NCBI RefSeq assembly: GCF_022437945.1
Contig: NZ_CP092535.1
Span: forward strand, 2,790,001 to 2,854,000
Direction of reading: 5' to 3'
Source: Nocardioides sp. TF02-7
GTDB lineage: Bacteria > Actinomycetota > Actinomycetes > Propionibacteriales > Nocardioidaceae
DNA: 64,000 nucleotides
Both the position numbers and the translations under genes were made by a program. Shown here one piece after another: positions 24,925-26,971 of the stretch. Positions within the stretch are counted from its first letter, which is position 1, and each line of letters opens with the position of its first letter. The notes under the pieces are model-generated. The model ran no database searches, was not told where the DNA came from, and saw nothing but the letters and a program-made list of their open reading frames with translations.

Positions 24925-25539
24925 TCAGAACACGTTGAACGGGCGGAACTGGACGGACAGCCGCGGCCCGGCCGACGCGACCTTGGGCACGGCGTGCTCC
25001 CAGGTGCGCTGGCAGGAGCCGCCCATGACGAGCAGGTCGCCGTGGCCCATCTCGAACGAGATCGAGTCGCCGCCGCCGACCGGCCGCAGGACCAGCCGCC
25101 GCGGGTCGCCCACGGACACGATCGCCACCATCGTGTCGTGGCTGTTGCCGCGCCCGATCCGGTCGCCGTGCCAGGCGACGCTGTCGCGACCGTCGCGGTA
25201 GTAGCAGCAGCCGGCGGTGCGGAACGGCTCGCCGAGCTCGGGCAGGTAGTGCTCGCTCAGCGCGTCGCGCGCGGCGGTGAGGACGGGATGGGGCAGCTCC
25301 TCGCCGATCATGTAGGTGTGGAGCAGGCGCGGGACGTCGACGACCCGGTCGTACATCTGGCGGCGCTCGGCCCGCCAGGGCACGTCGCGCACCAGCGTCG
25401 CGAAGACGTCGTCGGGCTCGGGCAGCCAGCCGCGCGCGACGTCGACCCAGGCCCCGGCGGTCAGCTCGTGCCGCTCGGGCCCCGCGAAGTCGAGGGCGCC
25501 GGTGGCGGGGGCCTCGAAGAGGGTGCTCTGGAAGTCCAT
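24925..25539 (-). CDS. AlkB-family 2-oxoglutarate/Fe(II) dioxygenase
   Basis: The 204-residue protein carries the jelly-roll iron site: WHGDRIGRG gives His and Asp, CQRTWEHAVPK the distal His, and PRLSVQFR the Arg that holds 2-oxoglutarate. The substrate lid segment CYYRDGRDS matches AlkB homologs. Members remove methyl or etheno adducts from DNA or RNA bases. The ATG at 25539 has a leaderless -10 box, and a LexA box lies right behind it, so SOS control of this repair gene is likely. Confidence 0.88.
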   Translation of the reverse strand: MDFQSTLFEAPATGALDFAGPERHELTAGAWVDVARGWLPEPDDVFATLVRDVPWRAERRQMYDRVVDVPRLLHTYMIGEELPHPVLTAARDALSEHYLPELGEPFRTAGCCYYRDGRDSVAWHGDRIGRGNSHDTMVAIVSVGDPRRLVLRPVGGGDSISFEMGHGDLLVMGGSCQRTWEHAVPKVASAGPRLSVQFRPFNVF

Positions 25540-25545
25540 GTGCCG

Positions 25546-25551
25546 ACGATA
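25546..25551 (-). promoter_or_regulatory. leaderless -10 box for alkB
   Basis: On the minus strand TATCGT ends 6 nt before the alkB ATG. The LexA box begins 10 bp further upstream. Confidence 0.5.
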
Positions 25552-25560
25552 CCCGATCGT

Positions 25561-25576
25561 TCGAACACGTGTTCGC
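25561..25576. promoter_or_regulatory. LexA (SOS) box upstream of alkB
   Basis: TCGAACACGTGTTCGC fits the actinobacterial LexA consensus TCGAAC-N4-GTTCGA with only the last base changed. It sits about 21 bp before the alkB start, between the expected -35 and -10 positions, where a repressor would block transcription. The divergent GntR gene starts 104 bp away and could also be affected. Confidence 0.75.
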
Positions 25577-25666
25577 ACCGTGCCGGCGTGCGGGGCGCCG
25601 CAGGTGACCTGGACCTGATGCGGGAACCGGTTTCAATGTTCCGGGGACGGCGCGGGGTCTCCGCTC

Positions 25667-25672
25667 TATCGT
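25667..25672 (+). promoter_or_regulatory. leaderless -10 box for the GntR gene
   Basis: TATCGT ends 7 nt before the GTG at 25680. An inverted-like stretch GGGAACCGGTTTC (25622-25634) just upstream is a possible autoregulatory GntR operator. Confidence 0.45.
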
Positions 25673-25679
25673 TCGGTCC

Positions 25680-26399
25680 GTGGAGACAGCCGACCGGGGT
25701 ACGGCTGACCGACGCGCTCTGAAACACGTCGCGATCCGGGAGTACGTACGCGAGCTGGTGGACGGCAGCGCGCCGGGAACGGCGGCCCCTTCCGAACGGG
25801 ACCTCGTGGAGAGGTTCGGTGTCGCGCGGATGACCGTGCGGCAGGCCCTCGACGCGCTCGTCGCCGAGGGCGTGCTCGAGCGGTTCCCCGGCCGCGGCAC
25901 CTTCGTGGCGCAGCCGCGCCGGATGCCGAGCCGGGTCTCGAGCTTCACCGAGGACATGCGGTCGCGCGGTCTGACGGCAGAGTCGCGGACGCTGGTGGCC
26001 GAGACGGTCAGGGCGGGGTCCGGGGTCGCGCGGGCGCTCGGGGTCGCCGTACGGGAACCGGTGGTGCACTGGCGGCGACTGCGCCTGGCCGACGGCAAGC
26101 CGGTCTGCCTGTCCGAGGCGTATCTGACTGCGGCCCTCGTGCCCGACCTGCTGGGCGGCGACCTGCCCGACAGCCTCTACGAGTGGCTCGCCCTCCGGGA
26201 CCGCCGCCCGACCTGGGCAGAGGACTCGGTGTCGGCGGCCGTCGCCGGCGCCGAGGAGGCCGCCCTGCTCGAGAGCCGGCCCGGCGCGGTGGTCCTGCGG
26301 CTCACCCGGCGGGCCCTACGGGGCGACCGGCCGATCGAGGTGTCGCGGAGCGTCTACCTCGCCGACCAGCACACGGTGTCGGTGCGGATCGGCTCCTGA
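25680..26399 (+). CDS. GntR/HutC-family transcriptional regulator with UTRA domain
   Basis: 239 aa: a winged helix-turn-helix at about residues 15-80 (APSERDLVERFGVARMTVRQALDALVAEGVL...GRGTFVA) and a UTRA effector domain (about 85-235) with SSFTEDMRSRGLTAESR and WRRLRLADGKPVCLSEAYL. Such proteins repress sugar or amino-sugar uptake and breakdown genes until a ligand binds. No catabolic genes are adjacent, so the target is not evident. The frame is intact. Confidence 0.87.
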   Translation: METADRGTADRRALKHVAIREYVRELVDGSAPGTAAPSERDLVERFGVARMTVRQALDALVAEGVLERFPGRGTFVAQPRRMPSRVSSFTEDMRSRGLTAESRTLVAETVRAGSGVARALGVAVREPVVHWRRLRLADGKPVCLSEAYLTAALVPDLLGGDLPDSLYEWLALRDRRPTWAEDSVSAAVAGAEEAALLESRPGAVVLRLTRRALRGDRPIEVSRSVYLADQHTVSVRIGS

Positions 26400-26807: not shown

Positions 26808-26882
26808 TGCCTCATTGTCCCGGGGCCGCCAAGTCGCGCCGGGTCCTCAGCCTCGATCCGCCGGGGTCGGCGGGCGACGTGA

Positions 26883-26971
26883 CGGGCAAAACCTCCACTT
26901 GTCCGGCATTGCTTTGCCCGACATGTTGAGGTTTCCCCGGTCGGCCGGGGAAACCTCACGCGGTCCGGCCC
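26883..26971. repeat. alternating inverted-repeat element
   Basis: Three related units lie in alternating orientation: one with CAAAACCTCC then GTCCGGC, an inverted one with GCCCGAC then TTGAGGTTTCC, and a third with GGAAACCTC then GTCCGG. The best hairpin is GAGGTTTCCCCGG-TCGG-CCGGGGAAACCTC (26928-26957), 13 perfect base pairs. CGGGCAAA/TTTGCCCG (26883-26920) forms another. It lies between two genes that read on the minus strand and may end transcription, but it also looks like a REP-type repeat. Confidence 0.6.

Follow-up and report, generated by a model that had tools for sequence, protein, structure and literature searches.

A predicted LexA operator before an AlkB-type gene of Nocardioides sp. 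TF02-7 and its conservation among actinobacteria

Results

The alkB locus

The window analysed is a 64 kb stretch (64,000 nucleotides) of contig NZ_CP092535.1 of Nocardioides sp. TF02-7, and positions refer to this stretch unless otherwise indicated. An AlkB-type gene and a divergent GntR-type regulator gene share an intergenic region of 140 bp that contains a palindrome resembling the binding site of LexA, the SOS repressor. The features of the locus are as follows.

24925-25539, minus strand: alkB, encoding an AlkB-type 2-oxoglutarate/Fe(II) dioxygenase (204 aa plus stop)
25546-25551, minus strand: TATCGT, the -10-like element of alkB, with 9 bp between it and the box upstream
25561-25576: predicted LexA (SOS) box, TCGAACACGTGTTCGC on the plus strand, agreeing with the consensus at 11 of 12 positions
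25667-25672, plus strand: -10-like element TATCGT of gntR, 7 bp before the GTG start and 90 bp from the LexA box
25680-26399, plus strand: gntR, encoding a GntR/UTRA (HutC-like) regulator with Pfam GntR and UTRA matches

The alkB product matched Pfam family PF13532 with 53.5 bits (cut-off 31.2), and this is the single match to the family in the genome. Comparison with the PDB identified human ALKBH3 (E 1.1e-12), with which the WHGD motif (H-x-D), the histidine of EHAVPK and a C-terminal arginine of the window protein align. The HxD...H...R arrangement is thus present, and the aligned residues are presumably those of the active site of an AlkB-type dioxygenase. Among the best 80 of 584 matches, the nearest named relatives of the protein are all from Nocardioides. 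No ada gene adjoins alkB; the one Ada_Zn_binding match of the genome lies at genome position 324537 and alkB at 2814928, more than 2 Mb apart.

The LexA box and the alkB promoter

The original prediction had placed a LexA box at the alkB promoter, and such a site is indeed present at 25561-25576. The published actinobacterial LexA consensus is tCGAAC-N4-GNNCGa (PMC9380542), and the site fits the 16-bp palindrome TCGAAC-N4-GTTCGA with one mismatch in 12, as expected of a member of the actinobacterial LexA regulon. The mismatch is the outermost base on the alkB-distal side, which is G where the consensus has T. Within the window, exact CGAACRNNNGTTCG occurs only at this site, which is also the best match to TCGAACNNNNGTTCGA (1 mismatch of 12). 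Relaxed matches are common in this GC-rich sequence, and the palindrome might on that account be a chance occurrence: the 14-mer at up to two mismatches was found 75 times versus 57.4 expected, and the 16-mer at up to two mismatches 6 times versus 2.4 expected. Since these two-mismatch matches exceed chance only a little, the strong site alone was counted. Against a chance origin, the alkB box is exact at all 10 fixed positions of the pattern CGAACNNNNGTTCG, which has 15 exact occurrences genome-wide compared with 1 for a reversed control pattern, and all 54 loci of the relatives set described below retain the box in front of alkB. A chance palindrome is accordingly rated as having a negligible probability.

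Read toward alkB on the minus strand, the order is GCGAACACGTGTTCGA, 9 bases, TATCGT (25551-25546), 6 bases and the ATG (25539), so that the box spans 22-37 nt 5' of the start codon and lies in the predicted alkB promoter, whose -35 region it covers. The box had been described as 10 bp behind a leaderless -10 element; it does adjoin a -10 element of the leaderless type, and the spacing as counted is 9 bases. The same layout recurs among orthologs, with TANNNT found 7-10 nt past the box in 89 of the 120 boxed orthologs versus 12.2 expected after shuffling. A sigma-70 consensus scan of 25400-25800 reported no promoter. The alkB transcript is probably leaderless, starting with the ATG at 25539-25537, a fair reading because this codon lies six bases past the -10 element.

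A longer alkB reading frame, beginning at a GTG at 25578 and running through the box, was considered and is not favoured, because the codon that aligns with the ATG start is itself an ATG or GTG in 32 of the 37 same-genus loci (own included) and because the stretch before the ATG resembles a box followed by a -10 element.

Conservation of the box among alkB orthologs

A scan of orthologous upstream regions, which the original prediction had proposed as a check, bore out conservation of the box. Expected counts come from Markov-resampled versions of these upstream regions. In the relatives set, an alkB match was found in 54 of 58 genomes (own included). Upstream of orthologs with at least 50% identity, a box with up to two mismatches was present in 54 of 54 loci (own included; 0.5 expected) and a box with up to one mismatch in 43 of 54 (0.0 expected), the boxes beginning 26-53 nt 5' of the projected start. 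A class-wide sample comprised 148 genomes; a match was found in 101 of them, including the strain itself, nine further same-genus genomes and three of the same family. This sample contributed another 74 loci at or above 50% identity, of which 66 carried a box with up to two mismatches (0.8 expected) and 45 one with up to one mismatch (0.1 expected). Three of the eight loci below this threshold (L087, L100 and L127) have a three-mismatch box at the usual place, and no box was found upstream of the class-wide orthologs L117, L118, L121, L146 and L147. Conservation of the box with its gene, likewise expected of a regulon member, thus extends over both sets. From these comparisons one row was dropped (L105, where the contig ends at the gene), and the second fragments of split genes (G142, G152, G172 and G111), two short G066 fragments and a 32%-identical match in G031 were left out.

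Among AlkB homologs with less than 50% identity, a box with up to two mismatches preceded only 3 of 36 (0 of 2 in the relatives set and 3 of 34 class-wide). Since the orthologs at or above 50% identity are boxed and the more distant homologs rarely are, the box tracks one AlkB subfamily and not AlkB generally. The three boxed distant homologs (L148, L159 and L167; 39-47% identity) have strong LexA boxes with a single mismatch, which may mean that alkB came under SOS control, or stayed under it, on more than one occasion.

Additionally, 77 of 80 named loci (the best 80 of 584), which span Nocardioides, Marmoricola, Streptomyces, Amycolatopsis, Kribbella, Nocardia and others, have a box with up to two mismatches; these loci overlap with the other genome sets and are therefore not an independent count. 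When 46 same-genus loci (own included) were aligned on the box, information was high inside it, with little signal outside and a weak one before the -10 element. Within this alignment 32 boxes match exactly, and 44 match with no more than one mismatch.

The divergent gntR gene

The position of the site between divergent genes allows two further explanations, both involving gntR, which adjoins alkB in 18 of 37 same-genus loci (own included). All 18 of these loci have the box (8 with no mismatch, 8 with one and 2 with two). The box is equally present in 19 of the 19 loci in which gntR was not found, 16 of them with no mismatch and 3 with one, although four of these (L050-L052 and L070) were covered for only about 0.5-0.8 kb upstream. 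Its retention in all 19 loci argues that the box belongs to alkB. The palindrome could instead be the operator of the GntR/UTRA regulator itself, which would then regulate its own gene together with alkB, as the frequent adjacency of the two genes might suggest. Such an operator would not be expected to persist in the 19 loci where gntR was not found, or in other genera where gntR was not found in the stretch covered, nor would the motif be expected before recA, ruvC, uvrA and DUF222 genes, where it also occurs (see below); this explanation is considered very improbable.

The original prediction had also suggested that the GntR gene could share the LexA site. A symmetrical site in a common intergenic region of 140 bp could in principle serve both promoters, but the -10-like TATCGT of gntR itself, 90 bp off, is too far away for simple occlusion, and the presence of the box does not depend on gntR. 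A single box acting on both genes is therefore rated improbable, if less so than an operator of the regulator, and control of gntR by the alkB box is unlikely. The suggestion was not upheld; judged from the comparison of loci, the box most likely serves alkB.

Elsewhere in the window, positions 26876-26965 hold an intergenic repeat of 85-90 bp with at least 42 near-full-length copies in the genome (this one included) that are 95-100% identical, a lower bound given that 40 of 74 candidates were scored. As single-stranded DNA the repeat folds into two hairpins (z -5.3). Weaker matches, mostly to the second hairpin, were found among same-genus genomes, 20 of 59 having a match (own included). The repeat looks like a spreading palindromic element.

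LexA boxes elsewhere in the genome

The genome contains one match to the LexA DNA-binding domain. Two boxes precede the lexA gene, one with a single mismatch 95 nt before the domain match and one with two mismatches 78 nt before it, and recA is preceded by an exact box; both genes expected at the core of a LexA regulon are thus present, each with a box. Genes were assigned to the exact CGAACNNNNGTTCG sites other than L004, L007 and L010, as follows.

L016: exact box before recA
L015: exact box before ruvC
L012: exact box before uvrA (the match to UvrA models covers about 126 residues near the N-terminus, then breaks off)
L014: exact box before imuA' plus an IMS-family stretch (imuA'-imuB), in one reading frame
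L011: exact box before a HEPN_SAV_6107 gene
L002, L003, L005, L006 and L009: exact boxes before five DUF222 genes
L013: exact box before an HNH gene
L008: exact box before alkB

Six of the 15 exact boxes precede DUF222 (five) or HNH (one) genes, and some of these are nearly identical to each other. The RecA-dependent set of M. tuberculosis also includes five putative HNH endonucleases (PMC8151990). The single-contig assembly of the strain is rated 70% complete and some genes, such as those at L012 and L013, appear split across frames; together, the low rating and the apparent splits suggest indel errors in the assembly.

The site before alkB, its position in the promoter, its conservation with the gene and the presence of the motif in front of other SOS genes of the genome are all directly observed. 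On this basis the palindrome is almost certainly a LexA operator, as read from the sequence comparisons.

The SOS box printed for S. venezuelae alkB

For S. venezuelae, the alkB SOS box is printed as GGTTACGCTGGATC at -20 and marked as validated by Fig. 4D (PMC9380542); the binding tests named in the text of section 8 of that article are for lexA, recA, dnaE2 and uvrA (PMC9380542). The printed sequence was found in 5 of 295 probable Streptomyces genomes. In three of the five (L264, L266 and L267) it immediately precedes an alkB ortholog and there resembles a -10 region, and a LexA-like palindrome with two or three mismatches lies 21-22 bp upstream of it. At the other two loci holding GGTTACGCTGGATC, alkB was not found. 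These observations, made at three probable Streptomyces loci and not at the S. venezuelae promoter, suggest that the printed box may sit on the -10 element.

Discussion

SOS control of an alkylation-repair gene had been regarded as unusual when the site was first noticed. That view does not hold for actinobacteria: genes of this AlkB subfamily as a rule carry the box in the actinobacterial samples, and LexA control has been published. In S. venezuelae, alkB (vnz_32390) is a core LexA target with LexA ChIP-seq enrichment and an 11.02-fold rise in RNA-seq with mitomycin C (PMC9380542), and the introduction of the same article names ada, alkAB and aidB as functions induced by the SOS response. 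The locus described here resembles that system in that an AlkB gene is preceded by a probable LexA site; ChIP-seq enrichment and mitomycin C induction have been demonstrated for the S. venezuelae gene. At the same place, 11 probable Streptomyces loci (63-68% identical) have a box-like palindrome. The Streptomyces boxes are weaker, with 1-3 mismatches in these 11 loci and 1-4 in the named Streptomyces loci (among the best 80 of 584).

In M. tuberculosis, alkB is among the genes raised RecA-dependently, and Rv1000c, a putative AlkB, is in the set of 38 putative SOS-box genes, its protein having been detected only after mitomycin C (PMC8151990). Rv1000c was also 8.09-fold up, within the SOS group, in a moxifloxacin study (PMC7911356). 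It resembles the window gene in its AlkB annotation and its place on an SOS list, and its qPCR reverse primer (PMC7911356), when reverse-complemented, translates to LCYYRDG compared with CCYYRDG in the window protein; the two were compared through primer and list only. The M. tuberculosis gene differs in responding, at least in part, without the need for RecA and PafBC (PMC8151990). AlkB was overproduced in a recA-deletion, pafBC-silenced strain, and alkB is reported as still mitomycin C-responsive (PMC8151990); in view of both reports, control of M. tuberculosis alkB may involve more than LexA cleavage.

In E. coli, an ada-alkB operon (PMC6813329) belongs to the Ada adaptive response. The window gene likewise encodes an AlkB-family enzyme, but it has no adjoining ada and it has a LexA box. 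For Caulobacter and Brucella, the examined parts of PMC1839093 and PMC6813329 contained no LexA control of alkB, and for Kineococcus no alkB homolog is listed in the species in the part of PMC2587704 consulted. A narrow search of the literature on Nocardioides and LexA or SOS returned nothing relevant.

By analogy with homologous systems, LexA would bind the box and repress alkB in this strain, and DNA damage would induce the gene. In an undamaged cell, a LexA dimer on 25561-25576 would occupy the -35 region together with the 5' part of the spacer and would exclude RNA polymerase. Upon DNA damage, RecA would load on single-stranded DNA, LexA would cleave itself, and alkB would then be made along with recA, ruvC, uvrA and imuA'-imuB. 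The substrate of AlkB is likewise assigned from homologous enzymes: the protein would oxidatively strip alkyl groups from DNA bases, of the 1-methyladenine/3-methylcytosine type.

SOS control of alkB is already known, and what is new here is the Nocardioides case and the depth of conservation. The effect of the finding is confirmatory, because LexA binding and induction have been measured in Streptomyces and induction in mycobacteria. A broader proposal, which we hold to be slightly better supported than not, is that in one actinomycete AlkB subfamily SOS control replaced that by Ada at an early stage and has since been retained, with a constant layout (a LexA box 7-10 bp before the -10 element of a largely leaderless promoter), in most of the class. 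Alkylation reversal would there belong to the core of the SOS response instead of being adaptive. The proposal also includes the misplacement of the printed S. venezuelae box onto the -10 element. The results support the view that, unlike in E. coli, the direct removal of alkyl damage that this AlkB subfamily carries out in actinobacteria is wired to the general SOS switch and not to Ada. Judged by how well the box is conserved, alkB looks like one of the core genes of the regulon, beside recA and ruvC, and the survey yields a catalogue of operators.
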